Below are positions 2,293-27,279 of a DNA stretch of 33,017 nt, in pieces. Source of the DNA: Bacteroidales bacterium. GTDB lineage: Bacteria > Bacteroidota > Bacteroidia > Bacteroidales > UBA12077. A program made the translations under genes and the position numbers. Below the pieces are notes generated by a model. It was given only the letters and a program-made list of their open reading frames with translations, was not told the origin of the DNA and searched no databases. Where the stretch lies: positions 1-33,017 of the forward strand of contig JAQIBH010000059.1 of assembly GCA_027859205.1 (NCBI GenBank), given 5' to 3'. Position 1 is the stretch's first letter; each line of letters starts with the position of its first letter.

Positions 2293-2294
2293 TC

Positions 2295-3653
2295 ATGATC
2301 GAAAATAAAATATTATTTATATCAGCAAACCAGCATACAGTACCTTATCCTGTTTATCCAATAGGGCTATCATATATTTCCACGTATTTACAGGAAAAAT
2401 TACCAAATTATGAAAGTAAAATAGTTGACTTAAATTTTAACTCCATTGAAGAATTAAAAACAATAACTAAAGATTACAATCCTAAATATATTGGAGTTTC
2501 ATTCAGAAATATTGATGATGTTAACTCATACAACCGCGAAGAATTTGTTACGCATTACAAAAATGTAATAGACAATCTACGTACTGTATCAAAGGCCAAA
2601 ATTATTGTTGGAGGTTCCGGATTTTCAATATTTCCCGAACTAATGTTTAATCGAATAAATCCAGATTTTGGTGTTTATGGCGAAGGGGAAGAAACTATTT
2701 TAAAACTAATTAATAGTCTCGATAAAAATGAAGATTATACCGGGTTAAATCGACTGGTTTATAAAAAGAATGGACAATGTGTATTTAATAAAAACGAAAG
2801 TTATTTTAGTGATTTAAATTTAGATTTTGATAAAGATTTAATTGATTTTTATTGGGAGAAAAGCGGAATGTTAAACATTCAAACAAAACGTGGATGTCCA
2901 TATAATTGTATTTACTGTACTTATCCCCTAATTGAAGGGAAAAAGGTTCGTACTTTAAATCCAGATAAAATTGTTGATACTTTAAAAAGACTTTATTATC
3001 AGAAAGGAATTGATTATGTATTTTTTACCGATTCTGTTTTTAACATTAATAATAAATACAATTACGAATTAGCTGAAAAGATTATTTCCAGCGGAATAAA
3101 AATTCATTGGGGCGGATATTTTACACATAAAAATTTAGATGAAGATCTTCTAAAGATTTTAAAAAAATCCGGATTACAACACGTTGAATTTGGCACCGAA
3201 GCAATTTCTGAGAAAACACTGAAGACATACGGAAAAAATTTTACTGTAAATGAGGTTCTTGAAAAATCAGCATTATGTAATAAATTAGATATTGATTTTG
3301 CACATTTTCTTATTACCGGAGGATATGGGGAAACCGATGAAACAGTTAATGAAACTTTTGAGAACTCAAAGTTAATTGACAATACCGTCTTTTTTACTTT
3401 TGTTGGGATGCGTATTTATCCTGGAACTAAGCTTCAAGCGCATGCAATTCGGGAGGGTGTTATAGATAAGAATGATGATCTTTTAGCTCCAAAATATTAT
3501 CTTTCGAAAGAAGTAAATTACGATACTTTAAAAGAAAGGGCTTTAAAAACTCGCAAAAGATGGGTATTTCCAGATGAGGATACTGCTACTATTACAAATA
3601 AATTACGGCAAAGAAATAAAAAAGGACCGCTATGGGAATATATGACAATGTAA
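2295..3653 (+). CDS. B12-binding-domain radical SAM enzyme of lipid biosynthesis type
   Basis: The N-terminal ~130 residues have the Rossmann-like layout of cobalamin-binding domains (PVYPIGLSYISTYLQ, then IIVGGSGFSIFPE). A radical SAM core follows, with the [4Fe-4S] motif RGCPYNCIYC (Cys201, Cys205, Cys208 from this start). The classic DxHxxG cobalamin-histidine motif is not seen, as in many class B-like members. Such enzymes catalyse radical methylation or rearrangement. The substrate here is unknown but is presumably an acyl chain on ACP or a lipid. I chose ATG 2295, two bases after the previous stop. ATG 2277 is possible, overlaps the previous gene and adds MENEII. The 3' end overlaps the next gene by 22 bp, suggesting translational coupling. 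Confidence 0.85.
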   Translation: MIENKILFISANQHTVPYPVYPIGLSYISTYLQEKLPNYESKIVDLNFNSIEELKTITKDYNPKYIGVSFRNIDDVNSYNREEFVTHYKNVIDNLRTVSKAKIIVGGSGFSIFPELMFNRINPDFGVYGEGEETILKLINSLDKNEDYTGLNRLVYKKNGQCVFNKNESYFSDLNLDFDKDLIDFYWEKSGMLNIQTKRGCPYNCIYCTYPLIEGKKVRTLNPDKIVDTLKRLYYQKGIDYVFFTDSVFNINNKYNYELAEKIISSGIKIHWGGYFTHKNLDEDLLKILKKSGLQHVEFGTEAISEKTLKTYGKNFTVNEVLEKSALCNKLDIDFAHFLITGGYGETDETVNETFENSKLIDNTVFFTFVGMRIYPGTKLQAHAIREGVIDKNDDLLAPKYYLSKEVNYDTLKERALKTRKRWVFPDEDTATITNKLRQRNKKGPLWEYMTM

Positions 3654-4069
3654 TTGCAGATAGCAAGACAATTCAGCTGTTTATTCCACAACGTGCACCT
3701 ATGGTTATGGTCGAAAAATTACATAAAGCCGAAGGCGGACAAACAATAAGTAGTTTAGATATTTCGGAAAGTAATATTTTTTGTAAAGATGGATATTTAC
3801 AAGAGCCCGGACTAATTGAAAATATTGCACAAACAGCAGCTGTTGGAGTTGGTTTTGAATATAGAAATGAGGATAAAAAGGTCCCAACAGGATATATTGG
3901 TGCAGTTCAAAAGTTGACAATTCATAATTTACCAAAAATTGGTAAAACAATAATTACTGAGGTTAATGTTGAACATAAAGTATTTAACACAACCTTAATA
4001 AACGGAAAAATTACTTGTGAAAATCAGTTAATTGCTGATTGCTCAATGAAAATATTTTTAAACGAATAA
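3632..4069 (+). CDS. Hot-dog-fold 3-hydroxyacyl-ACP dehydratase subunit (ApeP-like)
   Basis: A 145-aa hot-dog protein starting inside the end of the radical SAM gene. IPQRAPMVMVEKL (residues 18-30) is the hallmark opening of the FabZ/ApeP-type dehydratases. The helix that carries the acidic catalytic residue is present as EPGLIENIAQTAA, with Glu63 in the ExxAQ arrangement. The HFPG histidine expected about 14 residues earlier is missing; no His lies in that stretch. So this subunit appears able to donate the acid but not the base. A second hot-dog gene at 15312 shows the reverse pattern. It probably dehydrates 3-hydroxyacyl-ACP in a heteromer. The family assignment is good; the heteromer is inference. 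Confidence 0.82.
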   Translation: MGIYDNVIADSKTIQLFIPQRAPMVMVEKLHKAEGGQTISSLDISESNIFCKDGYLQEPGLIENIAQTAAVGVGFEYRNEDKKVPTGYIGAVQKLTIHNLPKIGKTIITEVNVEHKVFNTTLINGKITCENQLIADCSMKIFLNE

Positions 4070-4100
4070 AAGTTTACATTGACAACCTAAATTTATCGTT

Positions 4101-4505
4101 ATGGAAAAAGATCAAGTACCACAAGATATAGGCATAACCGGAGGTGTTACGCGCGAAGTACAATATGCAGTTGACAAAGATGGTAAATATGTAAAAGTGT
4201 TGAGTAAAGGGTGGGAACCTAAGAATATAGTAAATGAGCTTGCCTGGGATGATATTCAAGAAAGTATCGATATTGCTAATGAAAAAATCATGGACGAAAA
4301 AGCAAGCCCCTTATTATACTTTATGGAGAAAAGCATAATGGATGTTTCTTTGTTAGCAAATTATATTGAACTCCCAACATGGAAAGTAAAAAAACACTTA
4401 AAACCTAAAGGATTTAAAAAACTTAATCAACAACGATTAGATAATTACGCAAAAATCTTTGAAATTAGCGTAGACGAATTAATAAATTACAAACCTGAAA
4501 ATTAA
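4101..4505 (+). CDS. Unknown protein with a C-terminal helix-turn-helix-like segment
   Basis: I do not recognise a named family. The 134-aa product has an N-terminal part with GITGGVTREVQYAVD and GWEPKNIVNELAWDDI, then a helical linker. Its C-terminal segment (about residues 80-134) runs DVSLLANYIELPTWKVKKHL...LDNYAKIFEISVDEL. That segment resembles a small XRE/Cro-like helix-turn-helix, with the pattern LA-x-hydrophobic turn, basic recognition helix and ISVDEL. No signal peptide or membrane segment is visible. It lies 31 bp after the dehydratase and 2 bp before the BtrH-like gene, so it is probably co-translated with it. It could be a scaffold or regulator, and no enzymatic motif was seen. 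Confidence 0.75.
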   Translation: MEKDQVPQDIGITGGVTREVQYAVDKDGKYVKVLSKGWEPKNIVNELAWDDIQESIDIANEKIMDEKASPLLYFMEKSIMDVSLLANYIELPTWKVKKHLKPKGFKKLNQQRLDNYAKIFEISVDELINYKPEN

Positions 4506-4507
4506 AA

Positions 4508-5512
4508 ATGAAACTTGAATTCGAACATATACCTGCAGGCCATTGTGAAAATGGTGTTATTTCTAGCTTATTAAAATATCATGGACTTAATATAAGCGAA
4601 GCCATGGTTTTTGGAATTGGCAGTGGTTACTTTTTTGCATATATGCCTTTTGTTAAGCTTAACGGAATACCGTTGGCTTCTTTTCGTCCTGTTCCAGGAA
4701 TGATATTTGCAAAAGCAGCAAAACGGCTTGGAATAAAAATGAAAAAGCAAACATTCAGAAAGCAACCAAAAAGAGCTATGGATGAATTGGATAGAGTTCT
4801 TGAAAAGAAACTTCCTGTTGGAATCCAATCTGGAGTTTTTCATTTAACATACTTCCCTCCTGCTTATCGTTTTCATTTTAACGCACATAATTTAACTGTT
4901 TATGGTAAAGAGGATAATACTTATTTTATAAGTGATCCTGTAATGGAATATGCCACGACACTTACTTACGATGAACTTAAAAAAGCACGGTTTGCAAAAG
5001 GACCATTAAGTCCGAATGGTAAAATGTATTATCCAATTGAAATACCTGAAGAAATTGATCTTAAATCAGCAATTCGAAAAGGGATTAAACAAACAACTGA
5101 CTGGATGTTAACTATTCCGGTTCCATTATTTGGAGTAAAAGGAATTAGATATCTATCAAAAAGAATAAGGAAATGGCCCAATAAACTTGGGACTAAAAGA
5201 GCAGCTGCTTACTTAGCACAATTGGTGCGAATGCTTGAGGAAATTGGAACTGGAGGAGCTGGATTTAGATTTATTTATGCTGCATTTTTGCAGGAAGTTG
5301 CTGGCGTAATGCAAGACGACAGATACAACGATATGTCCACCGAAATGACAAAAATTGGTGATAAATGGAGAAATGTTTCATCATTGGCAGCCCAAACATG
5401 TAAAGGTCGATCATCTGATCCAGACGGATATAATACTGTGGCTAATTTAATGCTTGAAATAGCAGATGATGAAGAAAGATTTTTCACTGAATTAAAAAAA
5501 CTATTAAAATAA
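4508..5512 (+). CDS. BtrH-like acyl-ACP-dependent acyltransferase
   Basis: The 334-aa protein matches the BtrH N-terminal domain plus its usual C-terminal companion domain (DUF4872 type). The papain-like catalytic set is visible: Cys13 in AGHCENGVISSLL, His127 in FNAHNLTVYG and Asp143 in YFISDPV. In butirosin synthesis BtrH moves an acyl group from an ACP to an amine. By analogy this enzyme would release an ACP-bound chain onto an amino group of an unknown acceptor. It follows the unknown 134-aa gene by 2 bp, and its stop overlaps the ATG of the ABC ATPase by one base. The family call is confident; the acceptor is unknown. Confidence 0.83.
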   Translation: MKLEFEHIPAGHCENGVISSLLKYHGLNISEAMVFGIGSGYFFAYMPFVKLNGIPLASFRPVPGMIFAKAAKRLGIKMKKQTFRKQPKRAMDELDRVLEKKLPVGIQSGVFHLTYFPPAYRFHFNAHNLTVYGKEDNTYFISDPVMEYATTLTYDELKKARFAKGPLSPNGKMYYPIEIPEEIDLKSAIRKGIKQTTDWMLTIPVPLFGVKGIRYLSKRIRKWPNKLGTKRAAAYLAQLVRMLEEIGTGGAGFRFIYAAFLQEVAGVMQDDRYNDMSTEMTKIGDKWRNVSSLAAQTCKGRSSDPDGYNTVANLMLEIADDEERFFTELKKLLK

Positions 5513-6270
5513 TGCAGGAAAATCAACATATAATTGAATTAAAATATCTTACAAAATATTATAAAGGTTCAAATATTCCTGCTATTGATAATATTAGCCT
5601 TAACATAGATAAAGGCGAAATATACGGTTTGCTAGGACCTAATGGAGCAGGAAAAACAACAACAATTTCAATATTATGCGGTTTATTTGGACCTACATCT
5701 GGCAATGTTTTCATTGACGGTTTGGAATACAAACATTCATCTGAAAAAATTAAGAATATAATTGGTGTTGTTCCCCAGGAAATTGCTCTTTATCCATCAC
5801 TTACAGCAAAAGAAAATCTTAATTTCTTTGGGCATATGTATGGTTTAAAAGGCAAACAATTAAAAAATAGAATTGATGAATGCCTTGAATTATTTGGATT
5901 AGAAAAAAATGCAAATCGTCGAATTAAAACGTTCTCTGGTGGAATGAAACGTCGTATCAATATAATTGCAGGTATACTTCATAAACCAAAAATTTTATAT
6001 TTAGACGAACCAACCGTTGGTGTTGACGTACAATCAAGAAATGTTATTCTGGATCATCTCCGAGATTTAAATAGGGATGGAACAACAATAATATATACTT
6101 CACACTATATGGAAGAAGCTGAGAATTTATGTTCTAGAGTTGCTATTATTGACATGGGCAAAATTATTACAGAAGGTAAGCCTAAAGAATTAATTAACAG
6201 CAAGGAAGAGTACTCCGATTTAGAAAGCATCTTTTTAAACATAACAGGCAGAGCTTTACGCGACGAATAA
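5512..6270 (+). CDS. ABC transporter ATP-binding protein (ABC-2 type)
   Basis: A complete 252-aa nucleotide-binding domain. Walker A is GPNGAGKTT (residues 42-50), the signature is FSGGM (141-145), Walker B is ILYLDE (161-166) and the switch His is His198 in TSHYMEEAE. The VPQE Q-loop lies near residue 89. It powers export with the permease encoded 11 bp downstream. Its ATG overlaps the stop of the BtrH-like gene, so the pair is in the biosynthetic operon and most likely exports the product or a lipid-linked form of it (inference). Confidence 0.95.
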   Translation: MQENQHIIELKYLTKYYKGSNIPAIDNISLNIDKGEIYGLLGPNGAGKTTTISILCGLFGPTSGNVFIDGLEYKHSSEKIKNIIGVVPQEIALYPSLTAKENLNFFGHMYGLKGKQLKNRIDECLELFGLEKNANRRIKTFSGGMKRRINIIAGILHKPKILYLDEPTVGVDVQSRNVILDHLRDLNRDGTTIIYTSHYMEEAENLCSRVAIIDMGKIITEGKPKELINSKEEYSDLESIFLNITGRALRDE

Positions 6271-6281
6271 AATATTAAGAT

Positions 6282-7565
6282 ATGCGCAGATTATTATCAT
6301 CAATATATAAAGAATTTTTAGTTCTTATTAGAGACAGAGCAGGTTTGGCAATATTATTTATTATGCCTTTAGTTCTTATTTTAATAATGACTGTAATACA
6401 AGATGCAACCTTTAAAACTGTTAAAGAAGTTGATATTTCAATGATTTTAGTAAATAACGATAAAGACAATTTGGGCGAAGCAATCAGTAAAGGTTTATAC
6501 TCTTCCAATTTTTTTAAAATTGTTGAAGAAATAGATGGAGTAAAAATTACTGAAGAATTAGCTGAAGAATTAGTTGCAAAGGGTGAATATAAAATTGGAA
6601 TTATTATCCCAGAGAGAGCAACCGAAGCTATCCGAGGAAATGTAAATGCTTTAATTAACAAATCGTTTAAATCTTTTAATATTCCGGGAGTTAAAAAAAG
6701 AACAAAGAAAAGCACCATTGATGTTACTATTTATATTGACCCAGTAACCAGCCCTTCATTTAGAAATATGGTAATGAGCTCCTTAAAGGAATTTACATCA
6801 CAACTTGAAATAGAAATGTTTTTTAAGAATTTTTCTGAGGCTTTAACTCAACTAATGCCTGATCAAAAACCTATTAAATTTGAAAGTTTCGAGACAATTA
6901 AATATCAGGAAATAAATGCATCGACAACCGGAGTTACTAAATTACCAAATTCAGTTCAGCATAATGTACCTGCATGGACTATGTTTGCAATGTTTTTTAT
7001 CGTTTTACCAATGGCAGGAAACATAATAAAAGAACGAGAAGATGGAAGTGCCTTTAGATTAAAAACAATGCCCGGTTCTTTTGTTACAGTTATGTTCAGT
7101 AAAATTTTTGTTTTTCTGGGGGTTGCTTTTTTACAATTCATTTTAATGTTGCTAGTGGGTGTTTATATTATGCCTTTGTTAGGGTTGCCTCAATTGGAAA
7201 TTGGACCACATAAAATTGCATTAGCAGTTATGGCTTTAGCATCAGGATTGGCAGCAACCGGTTATGGTGTTGCGATTGGAACAATTGCAACTACACATGA
7301 ACAAGCAGCTACTTTCGGCGCAGTTTCTATTATTATTTTTGCTGCACTTGGTGGTATTTGGGTACCTGTTTATATTATGCCTCCTGCTATGCGAATTTTA
7401 AGCCAATTTTCTCCATTGCAATGGGGTCTGAACGGCTTTTATGATATTCTATTACGCGGAGGAGATTTGTTTGTTGTATTGGCAGAAACGGGAAAACTCT
7501 TATTCTTTTTTATACTAATGCTTATTATAGCAATAGTTTATAATAATTATAACAAAACGAAATAA
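6282..7565 (+). CDS. ABC-2 type transporter permease
   Basis: A 427-aa membrane protein. One helix near residues 20-40 is followed by a large extracytoplasmic domain (about 45-225). Five further helices come after it, including VPAWTMFAMFFIVLPMAGNII, VFLGVAFLQFILMLLVG, LAVMALASGLAATGYGVAIG, SIIIFAALGGIWVPV and LLFFFILMLIIAIVYNN. The KEREDGSAFRLKTMP loop is typical of ABC-2 permeases coupling to the ATPase. It forms the exporter with the upstream ATPase. After this gene the operon is interrupted by a four-helix-bundle gene. Confidence 0.93.
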   Translation: MRRLLSSIYKEFLVLIRDRAGLAILFIMPLVLILIMTVIQDATFKTVKEVDISMILVNNDKDNLGEAISKGLYSSNFFKIVEEIDGVKITEELAEELVAKGEYKIGIIIPERATEAIRGNVNALINKSFKSFNIPGVKKRTKKSTIDVTIYIDPVTSPSFRNMVMSSLKEFTSQLEIEMFFKNFSEALTQLMPDQKPIKFESFETIKYQEINASTTGVTKLPNSVQHNVPAWTMFAMFFIVLPMAGNIIKEREDGSAFRLKTMPGSFVTVMFSKIFVFLGVAFLQFILMLLVGVYIMPLLGLPQLEIGPHKIALAVMALASGLAATGYGVAIGTIATTHEQAATFGAVSIIIFAALGGIWVPVYIMPPAMRILSQFSPLQWGLNGFYDILLRGGDLFVVLAETGKLLFFFILMLIIAIVYNNYNKTK

Positions 7566-7570
7566 AAGAT

Positions 7571-7588
7571 AGTTTCAAGTACAAAGTT
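7571..7588 (+). repeat. Left arm of imperfect inverted repeat around the four-helix-bundle gene
   Basis: The 18-nt segment AGTTTCAAGTACAAAGTT matches the reverse complement of 8033-8050 at 15 of 18 positions. The two arms bracket the four-helix-bundle gene 7603-7992, which suggests that the gene and its flanks entered as a unit. Confidence 0.5.
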
Positions 7589-7602
7589 AAAAGTACTCAG
7601 AT

Positions 7603-7992
7603 ATGGCAGGATTTACAAAATTTGAAGAAATAGAAGCTTGGAAAAGAGCAAGAGAATTATGTAAATTAATTTATAAAATAACTCTAAATGCTAATTTTTC
7701 AAGAGATTTCTCTTTAAAAGATCAAATCAGAAGATCTTCTGGTTCTGTAATGGATAATATTGCTGAGGGTTTTGAAAGAGGAGGGAAAAAGGAATTTATA
7801 CAATTCTTGTATATCTCAAAATCATCATCCGCTGAAACTAAATCAAAACTTTATAGAGCCCTAGATTATGAATATATCAACAAAGAAGAATTTGAGAGTT
7901 GTTATGAAAAATGTAATGAATGTTCAAAAATATTAGCAGGACTTATTAATTATTTAAAATCATCTGAAATTAAAGGGCCTAAATACCTATAA
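7603..7992 (+). CDS. Four helix bundle protein (23S rRNA intervening-sequence/Avd-like family)
   Basis: A 129-aa helical protein with family hallmarks: FEEIEAWKRARELCKLIY at the start, the central DQIRRSSGSVMDNIAEGFERG block, and EFIQFLYISKSSSAETKSKLYRALD. Relatives are found in intervening sequences of 23S rRNA genes, as stand-alone genes scattered in Bacteroidota, and as the Avd accessory protein of diversity-generating retroelements. No reverse transcriptase or template/variable repeat is seen nearby, so a retroelement role is not supported. It is unrelated to the pathway and sits between exporter and thioesterase genes. Imperfect inverted repeats flank it (7571-7588 and 8033-8050), which fits insertion as a small cassette. 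Confidence 0.88.
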   Translation: MAGFTKFEEIEAWKRARELCKLIYKITLNANFSRDFSLKDQIRRSSGSVMDNIAEGFERGGKKEFIQFLYISKSSSAETKSKLYRALDYEYINKEEFESCYEKCNECSKILAGLINYLKSSEIKGPKYL

Positions 7993-8032
7993 CTACGTAT
8001 TAGTTACTGTGTACTCAATATTGGGTGCTAGA

Positions 8033-8050
8033 AACTAAGTACTTTAAACT
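8033..8050 (+). repeat. Right arm of imperfect inverted repeat around the four-helix-bundle gene
   Basis: Reverse complement of 7571-7588 at 15 of 18 positions. It lies between the four-helix-bundle gene and the TTG start of the thioesterase, so it overlaps the region where the thioesterase start signals must lie. Confidence 0.5.
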
Positions 8051-8059
8051 TATTTAAAA

Positions 8060-8488
8060 TTGAAAAAAAAGAACTTAATACATCGTACTGAAATTGTCGT
8101 ACGGTTCAGTGAAGTAGATTCAATGGGCATTGTATGGCATGGGAATTATGCAAAATACTTTGAAGATGGTCGAGAAGCATTCGGTAAAGCTTTAGGCTTA
8201 AGTTATCTTGATGTTTATGCTAACAAGCATTTAACACCACTCGTAAAGCTACATTTTGAATATAAAACTCCACTTGAATATGGTGATTCTGCTATAATTG
8301 AAACGAGATATACTGATCATGATGCTGCAAAAATTCATTTTGAGTATACAATTTTTAATAAAAAGAATAACAAAGTTACAGCCACAGGTGAAAGCATTCA
8401 GGTTTTCTTAAATCTTGATCGCGAATTAGTACTTTTAAGCCCGGATTTTTTTATTGATTGGAAAAGAAAAATGGGATTAATTAAATAA
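8060..8488 (+). CDS. Acyl-ACP/CoA thioesterase of the YbgC/4HBT hot-dog family
   Basis: A 142-aa hot-dog protein with the 4HBT opening VRFSEVDSMGIVWHGNYAKYFEDGREA. The catalytic Asp20 and the HGNY motif (His27) are in place. It hydrolyses acyl thioesters, so it could release or proofread chains on the ACPs. The start is TTG at 8060; no ATG lies upstream in frame near it, and the next in-frame ATG (at SMGIV) would remove the catalytic Asp. The upstream flank belongs to the inserted four-helix-bundle unit, so normal coupling to the ABC genes may have been lost. Alternative: one of the FcoT/FabZ-like branches, but the motif fits YbgC best. Confidence 0.87.
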   Translation: MKKKNLIHRTEIVVRFSEVDSMGIVWHGNYAKYFEDGREAFGKALGLSYLDVYANKHLTPLVKLHFEYKTPLEYGDSAIIETRYTDHDAAKIHFEYTIFNKKNNKVTATGESIQVFLNLDRELVLLSPDFFIDWKRKMGLIK

Positions 8489-8559
8489 ATACTTTAAATA
8501 TTATTTCTAAGAAAGCTGTACAAAATCACAAAAACTTTTAAGAATAGATCTTCGTAGAA

Positions 8560-9720
8560 ATGAACAAAATATACACAATTGCTGATAATATTATAACATC
8601 ATTGGGCTTTACCAGCAATGAGAATTTTAGTGCTTTAAAAAATAGTAAATCAGGGATAGCAAAAACCGAAGATCCCAAAATTACTCAGGTTCCAATGTAT
8701 GCTTCTATTGTTGATTCAGAAAAACTTATCTCTAAATTTTCTGTAATTGGTAATCCTAATGATTATACTCGTCTTGAACAGATGATGATCCTTTCAATTA
8801 CTGAATCCTTAAAACAAACAAATATTGATCCTTCAAACGAAGATACATTATTCGTTTTTTCATCAGTAAAAGGAAATATAAATCTTATTGAAGATGAAAA
8901 TCATCCTTTCGAAAAAGAAAGAATTAACCTCTGGGCAATATCCGATCAAGTTTGTGATTTTTTCAAATCAACAGTTAAACCAATTTTTGTTTCAAACGCA
9001 TGTATTTCAGGAATTTCTGCAATTATAACAGGTGCTCAATCTTTAAAAAATCAAAAATATAAAAATGTAATTGTTTGCGGAGGTGATATTATATCTGAAT
9101 TCACTCCATCTGGATTTCAATCATTTAAAGCAGTTAGCGAAGAGCCTTGTAAACCATATGATGCAAACCGAACCGGTATAACTCTTGGAGAAGGCGTTGG
9201 TTCTATTATCTTAACTACTAATGCAGAATTAGTAAAAGAACAAAAACCAATAATTTTTAGGGGTGGCTCAAATTCAAATGATGCGAACCATATTTCTGGC
9301 CCTTCTCGCACTGGCGATGGGCTTTATTTTGCTATTAGTAATACACTAAAGGAAGCTAATAAAACAAATACTGATATTGATTATATATCGGGTCATGGAA
9401 CAGCTACACCATACAACGACGAAATGGAAGCAAAAGCCATTAGTTGGGCGGGACTAAATAGCGTTCCGGTGAATAGTTTAAAATCTTATTGGGGACATAC
9501 TTTAGGTGCTGCTGGGATAATAGAATGTATTGCGGGAATTCATTCTATTAAAGAAAACTGCTTAATAAAATCTCTTGGATATAATAAACATGGTGTTAGT
9601 GAACCTATTAATATAATTAAAGATTTTCAAGAAATCGAAGTAAAAAAATTTTTGAAAACAGCATCCGGTTTTGGAGGAAGCAATGCAGCTGTATATTTTT
9701 CTGAACTTGATTCAGATTAA
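8560..9720 (+). CDS. Beta-ketoacyl-ACP synthase
   Basis: A 386-aa condensing enzyme with an intact triad: Cys148 in VSNACISGISA, His279 in SGHGTATPYND and His313 in LKSYWGHTLGAAG. The SGFGGSNAAV loop is near the C-terminus. It is shorter and more divergent than housekeeping FabF, like KS paralogues of aryl-polyene clusters. It is followed by a short KS-like protein, an ACP, a third KS and a chain-length-factor-like KS, forming the elongation core of the locus. Which KS handles the starter is not evident from sequence. Confidence 0.92.
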   Translation: MNKIYTIADNIITSLGFTSNENFSALKNSKSGIAKTEDPKITQVPMYASIVDSEKLISKFSVIGNPNDYTRLEQMMILSITESLKQTNIDPSNEDTLFVFSSVKGNINLIEDENHPFEKERINLWAISDQVCDFFKSTVKPIFVSNACISGISAIITGAQSLKNQKYKNVIVCGGDIISEFTPSGFQSFKAVSEEPCKPYDANRTGITLGEGVGSIILTTNAELVKEQKPIIFRGGSNSNDANHISGPSRTGDGLYFAISNTLKEANKTNTDIDYISGHGTATPYNDEMEAKAISWAGLNSVPVNSLKSYWGHTLGAAGIIECIAGIHSIKENCLIKSLGYNKHGVSEPINIIKDFQEIEVKKFLKTASGFGGSNAAVYFSELDSD

Positions 9721-9749
9721 AATCTACGACTGAAATAAATTCAAATTAA

Positions 9750-10379
9750 ATGAAAAACTTTATAAGTAAATATTGCATTATTAAACCGAATGAAGTTTTT
9801 GTTAACGGGAAACTTGAATTCTCAAATATAGAACAAAATGGATTTGGTGCTTTTATGAAATCTATTTACAAACACAACGAAATCAAATATCCAAAATATT
9901 TTAAAATGGATAATCTTTGTAAAGTTGCTTTCATAGCGTCAGAAATTATTTTAAAAGGAAACGATCATATAAAAAAACTTGACCCAACCAAAGTTGGAAT
10001 AATAATACAAAATTCACATTCATCAATTGATACTGATATTAAATACAATGAAACGATAAAAGATAAATCAAATTATTTTCCTAGTCCTGCAGTATTTGTT
10101 TATACTTTACCTAATGTAATGATTGGTGAAATATGCATTCGCAACAAGTTTCAAGGAGAAAATACATGTTTTATTGCCAAAGAATTTAATCCAGAATTTG
10201 TATGCGATTATGTAAGCAACTTATTAGATTCAAATAAATTAGATGCGTGCATAACAGGATGGGCTGATTATGTTGATGAAGAATATAGTGCAAAGTTATT
10301 TTTAGTTGAAAAAAACGAGGAAAATAAGAAAGATAATATTAGTTTTAAACCCGAAATTATAAATCAATTAAGCAGATAG
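9750..10379 (+). CDS. Short KS-like protein lacking the catalytic cysteine
   Basis: A 209-aa product resembling only the N-terminal half of a ketosynthase. VGIIIQNSHSSIDTD fits the first thiolase-fold strand, SPAVFVYTLPNVMIGEI the conserved 'P..f...lpN' block, and ACITGWADYVDEE the strand near the active site. Where the nucleophile-elbow Cys is expected, the sequence reads FQGENTCFIAKEF, which does not align as a catalytic elbow, and no C-terminal His-containing half follows. It is probably a structural or chain-length partner of a neighbouring KS, not an enzyme alone. It is two bases upstream of the ACP gene, and similar truncated KS-like genes occur in flexirubin-type loci. Moderate confidence. 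Confidence 0.72.
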   Translation: MKNFISKYCIIKPNEVFVNGKLEFSNIEQNGFGAFMKSIYKHNEIKYPKYFKMDNLCKVAFIASEIILKGNDHIKKLDPTKVGIIIQNSHSSIDTDIKYNETIKDKSNYFPSPAVFVYTLPNVMIGEICIRNKFQGENTCFIAKEFNPEFVCDYVSNLLDSNKLDACITGWADYVDEEYSAKLFLVEKNEENKKDNISFKPEIINQLSR

Positions 10380-10381
10380 AA

Positions 10382-10639
10382 ATGGAAGAGTTAATATTAA
10401 AGATTAAAGAACAAGTTATTGAAGTTTTAAACTTAGAAGATGTTGAAGTTACTGATATTGATTCGGATGCTGCACTTTTTGGAGATGGATTAGGACTTGA
10501 TTCAATTGATGCTTTAGAACTAATTGTTTTGCTCGAAAAACAATATGGTATAAAAATTGAAGATCCAAAAGATGGAAAAAAGATTTTTCAAACAATAAGA
10601 ACTATAGCAGAATTTATAGAAGAAGAAAAAAAGAAATAA
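10382..10639 (+). CDS. Acyl carrier protein (second)
   Basis: An 85-aa acidic protein with the phosphopantetheine site Ser41 in GLGLDSIDALELIVLLEKQYG, closely following ACPs of aryl-polyene systems. It lies two bases after the short KS-like gene and 30 bp before the next KS, inside the elongation cassette. It presumably carries the polyene chain during extension. The ACP at 1115 differs in its N-terminal half and helix II region. Confidence 0.93.
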   Translation: MEELILKIKEQVIEVLNLEDVEVTDIDSDAALFGDGLGLDSIDALELIVLLEKQYGIKIEDPKDGKKIFQTIRTIAEFIEEEKKK

Positions 10640-10656
10640 TTCATTTTTAGTTGAAC

Positions 10657-10662
10657 GAGGGA
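10657..10662 (+). promoter_or_regulatory. Possible Shine-Dalgarno before the KS at 10670
   Basis: GAGGGA lies seven bases before ATG 10670. It is one of very few purine-rich sites in the window at proper spacing and supports the start chosen for the following ketosynthase. Confidence 0.4.
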
Positions 10663-10669
10663 TTTTTAC

Positions 10670-11869
10670 ATGTCAAAAAGGATTTTTGTTACCGGCATAG
10701 GTATAATATCAGGGATTGGGAATAATGTTGATGAAACATTTGAGTCAATTAAGCAGAAAAAGTCGGGTGTAACTGAAATAAAATATCTAAAGACAAATCA
10801 TAAAGGCGAAATTCCTGTTTCTGAAGTTAAACTTTCAGAAGAGGAATTAATTAAGCTTGCTGGTCTGGATAAAAATGGATCTTTTACACGATCAACATTA
10901 ATTGGTATTATTGCAGCAAACGAAGCTGTAAAAAATGCTAATATCAATGATATAGGAGAATGTAAAACCGGATTAATTTCTGGAACTACCGTTGGTGGAA
11001 TGGACAAAAGTGAACTTCACTATAAAGACCTTTTAACAACAACAAATAACATTGAATTTATTGAAAGTCACGATTGTGGCGACAGTACCGAAAAAATTGC
11101 AGACTCCATTGGAGTTAAAGATTTTGTTTCTACTACAAGTACAGCTTGTTCATCGGCTGCAAATTCAATGATTTTAGGTTCTCGAATGATAAAAAATGGT
11201 TTGCTCGACAGAGTAGTTGCCGGTGGAATTGAGTCACTTACTCGTTATCATATGAATGGATTTAATACCTTAATGATTCTTGATCACGAGCCTTGTAAAC
11301 CTTTCGATGAAAATCGTCAAGGATTAAATTTAGGTGAAGGTGCGGCTTTTCTTGTTTTAGAATCGGAAGAGCTTGTCAAAAAAAATGGCAGTAAAGTTCT
11401 TGCAGAATTAACCGGATATGGTAATTCATGTGAAGCATTTCATCAAACAGCATCAACTCCTGAAGGAAAAGGTGCGTATAGCGCGATGAAAGAAGCTCTG
11501 GAAAGAAGTGGTCTAAAACCTGAACAAATTGACTATATAAATGCTCACGGAACAGGAACAGATAATAATGATTTATCGGAAGGAAGAGCAATAGATAAAC
11601 TTTTTGGGCCGAACCATCCGAAAATAAGTTCCACTAAAGCATATACAGGACATACAACTAGTGCTGCAGGTGGCGTTGAAGCAGTTCTTTCAATATTGTG
11701 TATTCAGAATAATATGATTTTCCCAAATCTGAATTTTAAGGAGCAGATGAAAGAATTAAACTTTAAACCTGTTACCGAACTATTGGAAAATGTAAAGGTT
11801 GATCATGTATTATCGAATTCATTTGGTTTTGGCGGAAATAATTCTGCATTAATTTTTTCAAGATATTAA
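10670..11869 (+). CDS. Beta-ketoacyl-ACP synthase (FabF-like)
   Basis: A 399-aa full-length KS with Cys160 in TTSTACSSAANS, His293 in INAHGTGTDNND, His328 in STKAYTGHTTSAAGG and the C-terminal NSFGFGGNNSAL loop. All catalytic residues are present. It ends one base before the chain-length-factor-like gene, the arrangement of KSalpha/KSbeta pairs in type II polyketide and aryl-polyene systems. It is therefore likely the main elongating enzyme, acting as a heterodimer with the next gene product on the ACP encoded just upstream. The pairing is inferred from position. Confidence 0.94.
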   Translation: MSKRIFVTGIGIISGIGNNVDETFESIKQKKSGVTEIKYLKTNHKGEIPVSEVKLSEEELIKLAGLDKNGSFTRSTLIGIIAANEAVKNANINDIGECKTGLISGTTVGGMDKSELHYKDLLTTTNNIEFIESHDCGDSTEKIADSIGVKDFVSTTSTACSSAANSMILGSRMIKNGLLDRVVAGGIESLTRYHMNGFNTLMILDHEPCKPFDENRQGLNLGEGAAFLVLESEELVKKNGSKVLAELTGYGNSCEAFHQTASTPEGKGAYSAMKEALERSGLKPEQIDYINAHGTGTDNNDLSEGRAIDKLFGPNHPKISSTKAYTGHTTSAAGGVEAVLSILCIQNNMIFPNLNFKEQMKELNFKPVTELLENVKVDHVLSNSFGFGGNNSALIFSRY

Positions 11870-11870
11870 T

Positions 11871-12935
11871 ATGGATGTTTATATAAAAGGTATAGGTAAT
11901 ATATCTCCTCAAAATACTATTGACAGCAATATTTTCTTAGATGAAATTGTAAATCACGATACCGATTTTCTTTCATGTATAGCACCTAATTATAAAGAAT
12001 TTATAAATCCTATTCAACTTCGCCGTATGAGTAAGTTGATAAAAATGGGAATTAGTGCTTCTAAATTATGTTTAACAGATGCTGGAATTGAAAATCCAGG
12101 TGCAATTATTACAGGAACGGGACTTGGATTAGTTGGTGATACCGAGAAATTTCTCAATCAAATGCTTGATAATAATGAAGAGTTTCTTGCTCCTACTGCA
12201 TTTATTCAGTCAACACATAATACTATAAGTGGGCAGGTTGCAATTGCATTAAAATGTTTTAACTATAATAATACATACTCTCATCGTGGATTTTCATTTG
12301 AAAGTGCCCTTTTAGATGGGATGCTTTTGATAAAAGATAAAGATGCTGAAAATGTTTTGGTCGGAGGTTTCGATGAGATTACTCCAGAGCATTATTCCAT
12401 AGTAAAGAAAACGCGTTGGGTTAAGAAAGAAACAATAAAAAGCTTGGATCTTTTAGATCATAAAACACCAGGAACAATTGTTGGTGAAGGTGTTGGTTTC
12501 TTTTCTTTAACTGGCAAAAAAGATGAAAGTAACTACGCTAAAATCAAAGATATTAAAACCATTTACAAACCCGATAACAAAGAAGAAATTGAAACAAAAA
12601 TAAATCAATTCTTAACTGAAAATGATTTAACTAAAAATGATATTGATTTAGTAGTTCTTGGAATTAATGGTAATGTTGATACCGATGATATTTATTATCA
12701 TTTAGCAGATAATTTTTTCAATACCAACTATGCGTATTTCAAGCATCTTTCGGGTGATTATCATACGGTTGGTACATTTGCTTTATGGTTTGCAGCTAAT
12801 ACTATTAAACATCAGAAAGTACCCGAAGTCACTCGTTTCAGAAAAGAAAACTTTACTGAAAAGCCAATAAAAAACGTATTGGTATATAATCATTTTAGAG
12901 AAGTTGATCACTCAATATTGTTATTAACCCAATGA
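11871..12935 (+). CDS. Chain-length-factor-like ketosynthase, catalytically incomplete
   Basis: A 354-aa thiolase-fold protein. FIQSTHNTISGQVAIALKC (residues 111-129) is the conserved pre-elbow region. The elbow itself reads YSHRGFSFES (136-145), with no cysteine where KS enzymes have TACASG. The NAHGTGT and KSxxGH histidine motifs are replaced too (VVLGINGN and YFKHLSGDYHT). It should therefore not condense but pair with the KS immediately upstream to set chain length. It is one base downstream of that KS and overlaps the deacetylase gene by 4 bp (ATGA). Confidence 0.85.
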   Translation: MDVYIKGIGNISPQNTIDSNIFLDEIVNHDTDFLSCIAPNYKEFINPIQLRRMSKLIKMGISASKLCLTDAGIENPGAIITGTGLGLVGDTEKFLNQMLDNNEEFLAPTAFIQSTHNTISGQVAIALKCFNYNNTYSHRGFSFESALLDGMLLIKDKDAENVLVGGFDEITPEHYSIVKKTRWVKKETIKSLDLLDHKTPGTIVGEGVGFFSLTGKKDESNYAKIKDIKTIYKPDNKEEIETKINQFLTENDLTKNDIDLVVLGINGNVDTDDIYYHLADNFFNTNYAYFKHLSGDYHTVGTFALWFAANTIKHQKVPEVTRFRKENFTEKPIKNVLVYNHFREVDHSILLLTQ

Positions 12936-13702
12936 TAAAACCAAGAACCACTTTTGTTCTTTACATCATTGTATTAATCCTGGTTTATCTCTTTCTTCCA
13001 TGGCAAGGGATATTTTTTATTATAACAAGTCTGTTATTTCTAAGTCATTTAGTTTATTGCTCTGCTAACATTTGTTCCCAAGCATATATCAAAACATTAT
13101 GTAAAGCGATAATATCTGAAAAAAAAATAGCCATTACATTTGATGACGGTCCCGATTCAGAAATCACTCCAAAAGTTTTGGAAATACTCGATCAATACAA
13201 TGCAAAAGCCACATTCTTTTGTGTTGGTAAGCACATTGAGAATAACAAAGATTTATTAAAATTGATTGATAAAAAAGGTCATTTAATTGGCAATCACACT
13301 TGGTCGCACGATCGATGGTTCGATATATTTTCATCAAAAAAAATGAAAATTGAAATTGAAAAAACATCTGACGTAATAACTGCAATCATAAATAGAAAAT
13401 TAAATTTATTTCGTCCTCCATATGGAGTTACCAATCCAAATTTAAAAAGAGCTATAAAAGATTTAAATTTTCGAACAATTGGATGGAGTTTACGGTCTTT
13501 CGATACAGTAAAAAGTACGGAAAAAACATTAAAAAGATTAAAGAACAAATTATCGCCTGGTGATATTATCTTATTTCATGATAATAGAGAACATATTGTT
13601 GAAATACTAAAAGCATTTTTAGAATATTCTAATGATGAAGGTTATGAAATTATTCCTGTTGATCAATTATTAAATATTAAAGCATATGAAACTTACATGT
13701 AA
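12932..13702 (+). CDS. Membrane-anchored NodB-type polysaccharide deacetylase
   Basis: A 256-aa protein with two hydrophobic N-terminal stretches (about residues 8-24 and 26-45), followed by a NodB homology domain. The motif TFDDGPD has the base Asp71 and metal ligand Asp72; His122 and His126 in NHTWSH are the other metal ligands. RPPYG (161-165) and LFHDN near the C-terminus complete the active site. It removes N- or O-acetyl groups from a sugar or related amide. In this locus it could deacetylate a glycan acceptor or product precursor, freeing an amine for the acyltransferases (inference). Its ATG overlaps the preceding stop, so it is translationally coupled to the KS pair. Confidence 0.9.
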   Translation: MIKPRTTFVLYIIVLILVYLFLPWQGIFFIITSLLFLSHLVYCSANICSQAYIKTLCKAIISEKKIAITFDDGPDSEITPKVLEILDQYNAKATFFCVGKHIENNKDLLKLIDKKGHLIGNHTWSHDRWFDIFSSKKMKIEIEKTSDVITAIINRKLNLFRPPYGVTNPNLKRAIKDLNFRTIGWSLRSFDTVKSTEKTLKRLKNKLSPGDIILFHDNREHIVEILKAFLEYSNDEGYEIIPVDQLLNIKAYETYM

Positions 13703-13844
13703 TAATTTTGTTTAAATAGGTCATCAAATCTTGTCATATGATAGAAATATCAAAAGTTTAAGACATGTAAGTTCACGAGCAGAATGTGTGTTGGATTTGA
13801 GGGTGCGAGTAACAAAAGATAGCATTTTATTAGTTAAGAAATAA

Positions 13845-13852
13845 TAAATTTG
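13845..13852 (+). promoter_or_regulatory. Possible -7 box (TAnnTTTG) before the LolA-like gene
   Basis: TAAATTTG fits the Bacteroidota -7 consensus and falls in a 158-bp gap, but it lies only eight bases before the ATG at 13861. Transcription from it would give an almost leaderless message. No convincing -33 TTG was found. Weak call. Confidence 0.25.
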
Positions 13853-13860
13853 AAACTAAA

Positions 13861-14514
13861 ATGAAAATACTAATAACATTAATAGTAAGCATTTTTGTAG
13901 CTATAGCAACATTTGCTCAAGAAAATAATTTTAAAGAAGTAACAGATATTGAAAAAGTCAAAGTAGAACTTGGTAAACTTTCAGAGAATACTTCCACAAT
14001 TCATAGTCAATTTATACAGGAAAAACATCTAAGTTTTCTAACCGAAAATATTATTTCTAAAGGTGAGTTTTATTTCAAAGGCCCTAACCAGCTACGTTGG
14101 GAATACTCTGAACCATTCGAATATATCATAGTATTTAATGATAAAAATATACTCATTGAAGATGAAGACAAAATCAGCACCTATGATACAGAATCAAATA
14201 AAATGTTTAGTGAAATTAATAATATGATGATTGGTTCAATACAAGGAAACCTATTTACAGATAGCGAACGTTTTGCAGTAAAATATTTTGAAAATAAAAC
14301 TCAATACCTATTGGAGTTAGAGCCTAAATTACCCGAAATGAAGAATATGCTTAAAACTATTAAAATCTATGTGGATAAATCAAATATTTCAGTTGCGAAA
14401 ATAGTAATGTTAGAAAGTTCCGACGACTATACAAGCATTAATTTCACAAACAGAGAGCTGAATAAGCAAATTGATAATGAAAAGTTTAATATTAAATCAG
14501 ATATTTTGGACTAA
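13861..14514 (+). CDS. LolA-like outer membrane lipoprotein carrier
   Basis: A 217-aa protein with a clear signal peptide (hydrophobic residues 3-17, cleavage likely after ATFA near residue 19). A LolA-like body follows: STIHSQFIQEKHLSFLTENIISKGEFYFKGPNQLRWEY is the family's beta-strand signature. LolA carries acylated molecules across the periplasm. A cluster-encoded copy, beside a lipoprotein and an MMPL exporter, suggests transport of the lipid product to the outer membrane, as proposed for aryl polyenes. Housekeeping lolA is expected elsewhere. A small palindrome overlaps the stop codon. Confidence 0.88.
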   Translation: MKILITLIVSIFVAIATFAQENNFKEVTDIEKVKVELGKLSENTSTIHSQFIQEKHLSFLTENIISKGEFYFKGPNQLRWEYSEPFEYIIVFNDKNILIEDEDKISTYDTESNKMFSEINNMMIGSIQGNLFTDSERFAVKYFENKTQYLLELEPKLPEMKNMLKTIKIYVDKSNISVAKIVMLESSDDYTSINFTNRELNKQIDNEKFNIKSDILD

Positions 14515-14595
14515 AGTCCTAGAATTAATTCAGATCAATAACCCCAGGCTTAAGCCTGGGGTTACTAGAACAATCTTCCACATGGGCTTTAGCCC
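14508..14595 (+). repeat. Cluster of three palindromes after the LolA-like gene
   Basis: Three GC-richer palindromes lie in a row: GGACTAAAGTCC (14508-14519, spanning the LolA stop), a perfect 26-nt palindrome at 14539-14564 centred on CTTAAG with CCCCAGG/CCTGGGG arms, and GGGCTTTAGCCC (14584-14595). A related set lies after the C45 gene at 24162-24217. They look like a dispersed intergenic repeat family. They could fold in RNA and affect message ends, but no T-tract follows. Confidence 0.75.
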
Positions 14596-14617
14596 AAACT
14601 TGTAAAACAAAACAATA

Positions 14618-15310
14618 ATGAATAAAGAGCATCGAATAATGAATAATGACATAAATCTGTCACTTCTAAATTCTAAATTCAATATTCGATATTCAATATT
14701 AATTTTCTTGTTAATAACATCAGCTTGTTCTAATCCATATAAAGATCTTACAAAAACTGAATATTCTGTAAGCGATATTCAACAAATACCCTTTACCCTT
14801 CCCTTTTCCGAAAAAGTTTTGATTTTTAAAACCAATATCAATTTTTATAAAAATGATATTAGCGGATTATTAATAATTAAAAAAACCAAGGACAATATTT
14901 ACCGAATTGTGCTAACAACGCAATTTGGATTAAAAATTTTTGATTTTGAATTAAACCATGGCGTTCTAAACGTAAATCATTGCATTGAATATCTTAATAA
15001 AAAAGTAATCATTAATACATTACAAACTGATTTCAATTTACTTTTAATGCAAAATAAAACTGAGGCAATTTATTTCATTGAAAATATAGATCTAAACCAA
15101 AATATCTGGAAATTTACATCAGGAAAAATCAACCATTATTATATACAAGATACAGAATCAGGAAAGATTGAAAACATTAGTTCTAAGAAACGAAATTCAG
15201 AAAAAATATCAATAGATTTGTATAATTACAAAGAGAATATTCCTGGGAATATCATTTTGGAGCATCGCAATATTAAGCTAAAAATGAACTTAAAATTGAT
15301 CCAACAATAA
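14618..15310 (+). CDS. Cluster-associated lipoprotein, function unknown
   Basis: A 230-aa product with a lipobox-like ITSAC (Cys37) after the hydrophobic stretch YSILIFLLITSA, so it is probably a lipoprotein. The mature part is rich in beta-strand pattern (GLLIIKKTKDNIYRIVLTTQFGLKIFDFEL), as in periplasmic LolB/DUF3261-like lipoproteins of aryl-polyene loci. The first ~25 residues are unusually long for a signal peptide and look like translated low-complexity intergenic sequence. ATG 14639 is an alternative start and the true start may be later still. Its place between the LolA-like gene and a dehydratase suggests a role in delivering the product to the outer membrane. Confidence 0.7.
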   Translation: MNKEHRIMNNDINLSLLNSKFNIRYSILIFLLITSACSNPYKDLTKTEYSVSDIQQIPFTLPFSEKVLIFKTNINFYKNDISGLLIIKKTKDNIYRIVLTTQFGLKIFDFELNHGVLNVNHCIEYLNKKVIINTLQTDFNLLLMQNKTEAIYFIENIDLNQNIWKFTSGKINHYYIQDTESGKIENISSKKRNSEKISIDLYNYKENIPGNIILEHRNIKLKMNLKLIQQ

Positions 15311-15311
15311 T

Positions 15312-15686
15312 ATGCTTTTAAAAGATTTTTATACCATAGTTGAACTAGACAGTAGCGATAAGGAAAATATTAAAGCAATTATCGACTTAAATAAAAAACA
15401 TGAAATTTATGGAGGACACTTTCCTGGGAACCCTATTGTACCTGGAGTTTGTCTGACTCAACTAATTAAGGAAGTAATAGAAAATGTAGAAAATAAAGCA
15501 CTTCAACTTTCTTATGCTAGTAATATAAAATTTATGGCCGTTGTTAATCCAGAAATAAATACCAGGCTTCAGATCGATTTAAAAATGAAATATGATACTG
15601 AACAAAATCTTATAAAAGTTAACAGTGTCACACACTTTAACGATCAGGTTTTTTATAAATTTAGTGGCAATTTTAAAGCGAAATAA
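15312..15686 (+). CDS. Hot-dog-fold dehydratase subunit (ApeI-like)
   Basis: A 124-aa FabA/FabZ-like hot-dog protein. The catalytic His36 is present in the canonical GGHFPGNPIVPGV motif. The acidic residue that should follow the PG by five positions is Gln50 (PGVCLTQLIKEV), so the Glu/Asp is missing. In FabZ-type dimers the His and the acid of one active site come from different subunits. This protein could therefore pair with the hot-dog protein at 3632, which has the Glu but no His. The likely role is dehydration of 3-hydroxyacyl-ACP to trans-2-enoyl-ACP for polyene formation. It starts one base after the lipoprotein stop. Confidence 0.85.
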   Translation: MLLKDFYTIVELDSSDKENIKAIIDLNKKHEIYGGHFPGNPIVPGVCLTQLIKEVIENVENKALQLSYASNIKFMAVVNPEINTRLQIDLKMKYDTEQNLIKVNSVTHFNDQVFYKFSGNFKAK

Positions 15687-15695
15687 ATTTTGAGC

Positions 15696-16895
15696 ATGAT
15701 TGAATCGCCAAATAAAAATAAAGACTTATTCAAGGAAAAAAAGTGTTGTGTTATTATTCCAACCTACAATAACCATCAAACCATTGAGCAAGTAATTAAT
15801 GATGTACTTAAATATACTGATCAGTTAATTGTTGTAAATGATGGTTCTACAGATACTACAAAAGAACTTCTAAATAAATACAATCAAATTGATATTGTAA
15901 GCTATCCTAAAAATAAAGGTAAAGGATTTGCTTTGCGTAAAGGATTTCGTTTTGCCTGGAGTAAAGGATTTGAATATGCCATTACTATTGATTCTGACGG
16001 ACAGCATTTTGCTACCGATCTTCCGAAATTTGTAGAAGCCATTGAAGAAAATCCTAATGCAATTATTATTGGTAACCGAAATATGGAACAAGAAGGCATT
16101 CCCGAAAAAAGCAGTTTTGGTAATCGATTTTCCAACTTTTGGTTTAAGTTCGAAACAGGCATTAAAATGCCCGATACGCAATCGGGTTACAGATTGTATC
16201 CGATTAAGCCATTAAGTAAAATGATTTTCTTTACCCGTAAATACGAATTCGAAATTGAAGTTATTGTACGTGCAGCATGGAAAGGTGTTAAAGTAACCGA
16301 TATCCCAATTCAAATATATTATGCACCAAAAGAAACGCGAGTTTCTCACTTTAGGCCATTTCGAGATTTCTCGCGCGTGAGTATATTAAATACTTTTCTA
16401 GTGATTTATGCTTTACTTATTGTAAAGCCTTTTGAATTTATCAGGAAACTTAATAAAAAGAGTATTCAAGAATTCTTTCGTACACAAATAACACAAAATA
16501 AAGAACCAAGTATTAATATTACTTTTGCAGTAATGCTTGGATTATTTATGGGAGTTGCACCTGTTTGGGGATACCAAATGCTTATAGCTTTTGGATTAGC
16601 ACATTTCCTAAAATTGAATAAAGTAATAGTTTTAGTTACATCGAATATTAGTATTCCTCCAATGATACCAATAATAATTTTTAGTAGTTTTAAAATAGGT
16701 GGATTATTTATCGAGTCGAATAAACTCAACGTAATATACGACAAGGGTTTAAGCCTTGAATTTATTAAGAATAATATAGTTCAGTATTTTGTTGGAAGTT
16801 TAGTATTTGGAATAGCACTAGCTTTTGTATTCGGTATTATAACATATATTTTACTTTTGATATTCAGAAAACCTGCTTATCAAGAAACAAATTAA
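15696..16895 (+). CDS. Glycosyltransferase family 2 fused to DUF2062 membrane domain
   Basis: About 399 aa. The N-terminal GT-A domain has CCVIIPTYNN, VVNDGSTD and DSDGQH motifs (nucleotide-sugar and metal binding) and the RVSHFRPFRD acceptor region near residue 225. The C-terminal ~130 residues form a membrane domain with FAVMLGLFMGVAPVWGYQMLIAFGLAHFLKLNK, typical of DUF2062. Such fusions occur in aryl-polyene/flexirubin loci and resemble dolichol-phosphate-mannose-type synthases, so it could add a sugar to a lipid carrier or to the product. I chose ATG 15696; TTG 15690 adds two residues. Confidence 0.88.
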   Translation: MIESPNKNKDLFKEKKCCVIIPTYNNHQTIEQVINDVLKYTDQLIVVNDGSTDTTKELLNKYNQIDIVSYPKNKGKGFALRKGFRFAWSKGFEYAITIDSDGQHFATDLPKFVEAIEENPNAIIIGNRNMEQEGIPEKSSFGNRFSNFWFKFETGIKMPDTQSGYRLYPIKPLSKMIFFTRKYEFEIEVIVRAAWKGVKVTDIPIQIYYAPKETRVSHFRPFRDFSRVSILNTFLVIYALLIVKPFEFIRKLNKKSIQEFFRTQITQNKEPSINITFAVMLGLFMGVAPVWGYQMLIAFGLAHFLKLNKVIVLVTSNISIPPMIPIIIFSSFKIGGLFIESNKLNVIYDKGLSLEFIKNNIVQYFVGSLVFGIALAFVFGIITYILLLIFRKPAYQETN

Positions 16896-26923: not shown

Positions 26924-27279
26924 TCTTCAGTTTCTTTAAACTTTTAATTTTAAGATGTTCAATTTAGGTGCTTAGCAGATTTGCTAACAAGCTGATAAAA
27001 AGATTGCTAATTTCGAAACGTTTTATAATTAGCCGCTTAGCACCATTTAAACCCGACTCATTAATCAATAGGAATATTGGATTTTTGGATTAATGGATTA
27101 TTAAAAAGTAAATAAACTGCAAATCTATAATCTAGTATTCAATGATTCCATCAATACTTCAATTCATCGCAGGGTATCATTTAAAAAGGCTGATCTCTTA
27201 CACACCAATAAAAATAGTATTCAAATTCTTCCTGCTTTTAAATTTAAGATGTTAAATTTGGGAATTGTAAAATTTATTG
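26924..27279. other. 356-bp intergenic region with an imperfect direct repeat
   Basis: No gene was found in this gap. It holds a 28-nt direct repeat at 26941-26968 and 27235-27262 (25 of 28 identical, core TTAAGATGTT) spaced 294 bp apart, the second copy 17 bp before the ligase start. It also holds a 10-nt inverted repeat with one mismatch (GGTGCTTAGC at 26967-26976 and GCTTAGCACC at 27035-27044). The direct repeats could mark an insertion or be regulatory sites. Confidence 0.6.

Follow-up and report, generated by a model that had tools for sequence, protein, structure and literature searches.

Why should one gene cluster encode two dehydratase-like proteins, each of which seems to hold half of an active site? 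The question is raised by contig JAQIBH010000059.1 of a Bacteroidales bacterium (assembly GCA_027859205.1), one whole contig (G000:C128) of 33,017 nucleotides that is called the window here. Two of its open reading frames, each starting with ATG, encode proteins of the hot-dog fold, which we call P0001 (145 amino acids; FCKDGYLQEPGLIENIAQ) and P0002 (124 amino acids; GGHFPGNPIVPGVCLTQLIKEV); their positions are given in Table 1. In FabA and FabZ, each active site draws its His from one chain and its acid from the other. We consider it probable, on the comparisons set out below, that P0001 and P0002 are the subunits of one heterodimeric 3-hydroxyacyl-acyl carrier protein dehydratase, with a single composite site, that forms the double bonds of a flexirubin-type aryl polyene. 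Each gene would most likely carry half an active site because the two work only as a pair.

P0001 has the acid Glu63 within the motif ENIAQ and has no HFPG motif; its active-site stretch, DGYLQEPGLIENIAQ, contains both Glu63 and Gln67. P0002 has His36, Gln50 and Glu54. A preliminary description of this DNA had assigned Glu63 without an HFPG His to the first protein and His36, with Gln50 in place of the acid, to the second, and the reading frame, codons and family counts agree with it on both; it had overlooked Glu54, which lies one helix turn past Gln50. A misalignment of Gln50 or Glu63 was considered and rejected, since two kinds of comparison concur that the alignment is sound. In P0002, 14 residues separate His36 from position 50, and the distance from His to Glu is also 14 in five FabZ-type proteins, which were removed from the family counts and used as yardsticks; in profile alignments, Gln50 is matched with Asp in ApeI and with Glu in FabZ, and Glu63 is matched with Glu in both ApeP and FabZ. 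The corresponding stretch of P0001, from the place of the His to the acid, is 8 residues long rather than 14, and the His loop is therefore shortened, not merely mutated.

Is this division of residues peculiar to one genome? The P0001 family was represented by 132 unique proteins from a sample of 198 genomes of the order and from 80 named loci (the best 80 of 576 relatives), among which the nearest are 79-86% identical to P0001 and come from Bacteroidales or Bacteroidetes metagenome genomes. P0002 was seen in 21 of these 80 loci, many of whose flanks end before it. For P0002, a phylum sample was also searched, for this protein and not for P0001; 118 of its 198 genomes had a match, of which the counts draw on just the 12 loci other than our own with E-values of 5.6e-14 or better. 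Four P0002 matches in the order sample were left out: G008, which aligned as FabZ, and G113, G189 and G090, which were judged solely by their long frame and weak E-value. Genomes and named loci may share species, identical ends were removed and near-copies kept, and the rows are related by descent, so that the counts given here are not independent events.

Glu63, Ala66 and Gln67 each occur in 132/132 P0001-family proteins. Position 55, the equivalent of the His, varies (V, F, L, Y, K, R and further residues), with His in 3 of the 132; counted over 134 proteins, the His is missing from its expected place in 131. In the P0002 family, His36 is present in all 74 freely aligned proteins and none of the larger set of 88 fails the His motif, and at position 50 of these 88, 65 have Gln, 10 have Glu, 2 have Asp and 11 have another residue, leaving 76/88 without an acid there. 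Both genes were available from 72 genomes or loci; every one of these pairs combines His36 with Glu63 and lacks a His at the P0001 place, and 60 of them also lack an acid at position 50. The split recorded in the preliminary description is thus conserved in homologues, and an accident of a single genome was rejected because the residues are retained in both families. One shared site predicts an invariant residue in each chain and a drifting counterpart, which matches the observed pattern. As a separate observation, Maribacter algarum (L143:10431 onward) has a second, weaker P0001-family match (E 6.9e-31) directly 3′ of the first.

The two genes also occur together. A P0002 match was found in 55 genomes of the order sample and a P0001 match in 50; once the four P0002 matches named above had been set aside, 50 of the 198 had both genes, one (G129) had P0002 alone, none had P0001 alone and 147 had neither. 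The 50 include G083, where the P0001 match covers a piece of 32 residues at the end of a contig. Among 31 pairs on the same contig, the distance between the gene starts ranges from 0.24 to 20 kb (median, 6.1 kb), with 8 of the 31 within 1 kb; given this spread, the 11-kb separation that the preliminary description had singled out was rejected as a meaningful feature.

Profile and fold comparison relates P0001 and P0002 to ApeP and ApeI, respectively, the chains of 6QSR, which by its entry title is the solved ApeI:P heterocomplex. With hhalign, the P0001 family scored 89.4 (E 4.8e-14) against ApeP versus 62.7 (E 4.2e-10) against FabZ; the P0002 family was only slightly nearer to ApeI (94.4) than to FabZ (90.8). 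The two family profiles did not match each other (probability 0.7%), and the notion that one gene is a recent copy of the other was rejected because of this mismatch and because each family matches its proteobacterial counterpart. P0002 matched the Pfam FabA-like family PF07977 with 32.9 bits, above the cut-off of 23, and the ApeI-like family PF22818 was matched by 24 of 28 P0002 relatives at E 0.01 or better. The ApeP-like family PF22817, against which E. coli ApeP scores 141.2 bits, was weakly matched by 2 of 39 P0001 relatives (best E 0.0013). Against the NCBIfam FabZ models both proteins stayed far under the cut-off (P0001, at best 32.1 bits of 113; P0002, 31.9 of 155.15). Single-chain AlphaFold models were confident (mean predicted local distance difference test scores of 93.0 for P0001 and 94.4 for P0002) and place Glu63 in the P0001 helix that spans residues 58-79, and both Gln50 and Glu54 in the P0002 helix that spans residues 45-60. 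In VIA-align 2, the leading match of P0002 is 6qsr_A (ApeI; Z 15.5; root-mean-square deviation 2.0 over 112 residues), which is tied with FabZ chains, the anammox one among them; for P0001, 6qsr_B (ApeP; Z 20.2, with 20.7 for the best row; deviation 1.6 over 136) belongs to the group tied at the top, again with FabZ chains. The choice between ApeI/ApeP and FabZ is therefore not decided by the fold alone; it is decided by the profiles, the residues and the cluster. One weak locus emerged when viral contigs were scanned with the P0002 family.

The heterodimer with a composite site, which the preliminary description had proposed with the cross-subunit geometry of FabA/FabZ, stands as the best reading, because one residue is invariant in each family while its counterpart has drifted, the genes co-occur, and the chains are related to those of the ApeI/ApeP heterocomplex. 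We infer that P0001 pairs with P0002 as ApeP does with ApeI, and that in the complete site His36 of P0002 would face Glu63 and Gln67 of P0001. The other site would be without a His, the P0001 loop being missing, and would contain Gln50 and Glu54 of P0002; most likely it is no dehydratase site. The enzyme would act on the 3-hydroxy intermediates bound to a carrier protein and dehydrate them as the aryl polyene grows, working as ApeI:ApeP does, except that the ApeI-type chain would also be without an acid at the usual place. If this is true, two genes are obligatory for the flexirubin dehydratase, its sole complete site being shared by two chains, and each gene has to be assayed, annotated and moved together with the other when the pathway is rebuilt. 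It would also amount to a natural experiment on catalysis across the subunits of a hot-dog enzyme, with one residue loss per chain retained across many Bacteroidota.

How does such an enzyme compare with known systems? As the preliminary description had stated, the pairing of ApeI with ApeP is known for aryl polyenes (6QSR; PMC8041823), and the A. baumannii ApeI/ApeP is described as heterodimeric "with a single active site" (PMC8041823). The split is thus less singular than the preliminary description held, a single-site heterodimer being already in print; what does stand apart is the acid, since ApeI keeps its Asp in the seven proteobacterial sequences compared. We compared seven proteobacterial ApeI/ApeP pairs (E. 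coli, Moellerella, two Pseudoalteromonas, two Cupriavidus and Caballeronia). ApeI has His and, at His+14, Asp in 7/7, as does chain A of 6QSR. ApeP has Glu in 7/7 and a His eight residues before it in 0/7, with a His at nine or ten in three; chain B of 6QSR has a His eight residues before Glu. Both systems belong to aryl-polyene clusters and consist of two hot-dog chains, the ApeI-type with a His and the ApeP-type with a Glu and a shortened His loop, and the common core is a His from one chain and a Glu from the other. They differ in that ApeI has Asp at the place of the acid, whereas in P0002 this place is taken by Gln, with Glu one turn further along. The composite-site idea being already known for ApeI/ApeP, the Bacteroidota version splits the two key residues more completely, and is distinguished by the loss of the acid from the ApeI-type chain in most P0002-family proteins.

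The flexirubin cluster of Chitinophaga pinensis likewise contains two putative dehydratases, FlxF and FlxS (PMC3992019), to which P0001 and P0002 should correspond by position; the available portion of that paper gives just "a dehydratase (FlxF, FlxS)", with neither a split site nor a complex. In the accessible portions of the open-license literature, we found no description of the flexirubin pair as a split dehydratase. The homodimers of FabZ and FabA share the fold and the residue positions with our pair, but bear both residues on a single chain (5/5 yardsticks) and so have two complete sites, whereas P0001 lacks the His and P0002 the acid. In HadAB of mycobacteria, a double hot-dog heterodimer with one active site, HadB supplies both His and Asp (PMC4491049, as far as its text was available); here, in contrast, the His is on P0002 and the canonical acid on P0001. 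The steroid hydratase ChsH1-ChsH2, a MaoC-type heterodimer, resembles our pair in having one active site made from parts of two chains, but it belongs to another hot-dog subfamily and acts on another substrate, and its active site is housed by one chain with the pocket coming from the other (PMC11321319, in the part available).

Several observations weigh against the proposed heterodimer. Joint presence is expected of any two genes in one cluster. P0001 matched none of the Pfam families, including PF07977 and PF22817, the match of P0002 to PF22818 (19.1 bits) is under the cut-off of 28.5, and the Foldseek E-value ranks FabZ chains above both 6qsr_A (rank 40 for P0002) and 6qsr_B (rank 20 for P0001). 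The residue pattern has exceptions: 3/134 P0001-family proteins have a His at the expected place, 10/132 have a His no more than 14 residues before Glu63, and an acid persists at position 50 in 12/88 P0002-family proteins. There is also Glu54. Position 54 is Glu in 77/88 P0002-family proteins and Asp in 1/88, Glu accompanies Gln50 in 64/65, and an acid is present at 50 or 54 in 84/88. A simply dead half-site would not be expected to need such an acid, and the second half-site is thus not simply decaying. The five FabZ yardsticks have His, Glu and Gln at the places of 36, 50 and 54; since Glu then Gln in FabZ is Gln then Glu in the P0002 family, ExxxQ has been exchanged for QxxxE. With Glu54 conserved and the motif so exchanged, the claim that homodimers are dead is not secure.

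Might P0002 then be active alone, with the acid shifted one turn to Glu54 and acting with His36 across a P0002 homodimer, while P0001 has some other role, such as binding the chain? The association of Glu54 with Gln50, in an order the reverse of that in FabZ, and the retention of an acid at one of the two positions in 84/88 would fit this idea, as would the opposition between an acid at 50 and an acid at 54 (Fisher p 0.00028, kinship ignored); an acid at 54 occurs in 6 of the 12 proteins with an acid at 50. However, the P0002-family tree, in which few forks are resolved (16 of 96 inner branches starred), yields three well-supported independent pairs for this contrast, too few to test it, the acid of FabZ is not at i+4, and a non-catalytic partner would not need the invariant Glu63 and Gln67 of P0001, so that we think it quite improbable that P0002 works alone. 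The wider possibility that the second half-site was rebuilt in Bacteroidota with its acid moved by one helix turn, so that either the P0002 homodimer is sufficient by itself or the second site of the heterodimer has another job, such as holding or isomerizing the growing polyene, is likewise unlikely in our judgment, if somewhat less so. The exchange makes it a testable question what becomes of the half left unused when an active site is split, and it is the part of this system that most deserves further attention.

The one other FabA-family match in this genome is a housekeeping FabZ, fused to LpxC, with both catalytic residues present. This enzyme could in principle perform the dehydration with P0001 and P0002 serving as a scaffold; the invariance of His36 and Glu63 would be unexpected in a scaffold, and we regard this explanation as very improbable. 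Because FabZ bears both residues, a mixed dimer of FabZ with either P0001 or P0002 would presumably also have one complete site, but the relatives ApeI and ApeP lie in one heterocomplex (6QSR) and the P0001 and P0002 genes co-occur, and that P0001 or P0002 should pair with FabZ rather than with the other seems to us exceedingly improbable.

Table 1. Positions of the two dehydratase genes, their key codons and neighboring genes in the window
Feature	Position	Strand	Remark
P0001, ApeP-type hot-dog subunit, probably FlxF by cluster position	3632..4069	+	Acid donor; without His loop
Glu63 codon, retained acid of P0001	3818..3820	+	Read from the DNA; Glu in 132/132
Gln67 codon of P0001, canonical i+4 partner of the acid	3830..3832	+	Read from the DNA; Gln in 132/132
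DarG-family protein	4101..4505	+	DarG_fam 155.3 bits, over 70; flexirubin_DarG 158.1, under the cut-off of 170
DarH acyltransferase	4508..5512	+	461.4 bits, over 300
LolA2 of flexirubin clusters (LolA2_flexi)	13861..14514	+	221.2 bits, over 125
LolB2 of flexirubin clusters (LolB2_flexi)	14618..15310	+	141.3 bits, over 60
P0002, ApeI-type hot-dog subunit, probably FlxS by cluster position	15312..15686	+	His donor
His36 codon, retained catalytic His of P0002	15417..15419	+	Read from the DNA; His in 74/74
Gln50 codon (CAA) of P0002, at the place of the catalytic acid	15459..15461	+	Gln 65, Glu 10, Asp 2, other 11 (n=88)
Glu54 codon of P0002, one helix turn past Gln50	15471..15473	+	Glu 77, Asp 1 (n=88)
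Glycosyltransferase family 2 with DUF2062	15690..16895	+	Directly 3′ of P0002; in E. coli a glycosyltransferase likewise follows ApeI
FlxY acyl-CoA ligase	27277..28587	+	711.7 bits, over 520

Judged by the NCBIfam models that score over their cut-offs (Table 1), the contig is a flexirubin-type aryl-polyene cluster, which also encodes two carrier proteins, ketosynthases, ketosynthase-like fragments, a thioesterase, a deacetylase, a glycosyltransferase and an MMPL protein. The start of P0001 is overlapped by a gene at 2277-3653 for a B12-binding radical S-adenosylmethionine (SAM) protein (TIGR04072; 426 bits over 360). The TIGR04072 cut-off was passed in 18/198 genomes of the order, all 18 of which have a P0001 match, and in 16/18 the TIGR04072 gene ends within about 170 bp of that match. 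Since the same slot in Persicobacter (L220) is occupied by a class I SAM methyltransferase, the B12-binding radical SAM protein may be a replacement for the methyltransferase.

The thioesterase gene lies directly 3′ of the P0001 homologue in Aureispira (L219) and Persicobacter (L220); in our contig, the interval 5512-7992 between DarH and the thioesterase encodes a pair of ABC transporter proteins and a four-helix-bundle protein (TIGR02436, 23S rRNA IVP family). Two ketosynthase-like proteins, at 9750-10379 and 11871-12935, show an N-terminal or weak match alone, and one of them is 209 amino acids long; they are probably chain-length-factor-like, and a chain length factor of 211 residues has been described in X. 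doucetiae (PMC12664062). A single 1292-amino-acid protein at 17037-20915 fuses an MMPL transporter domain with those of an acyltransferase and a methyltransferase. The genome has a second DarH (324.4 bits over 300), which stands beside an aromatic amino acid lyase on a different contig (G000:C190:1542-4775), and this locus is perhaps the other end of the flexirubin-type cluster or a second cluster.

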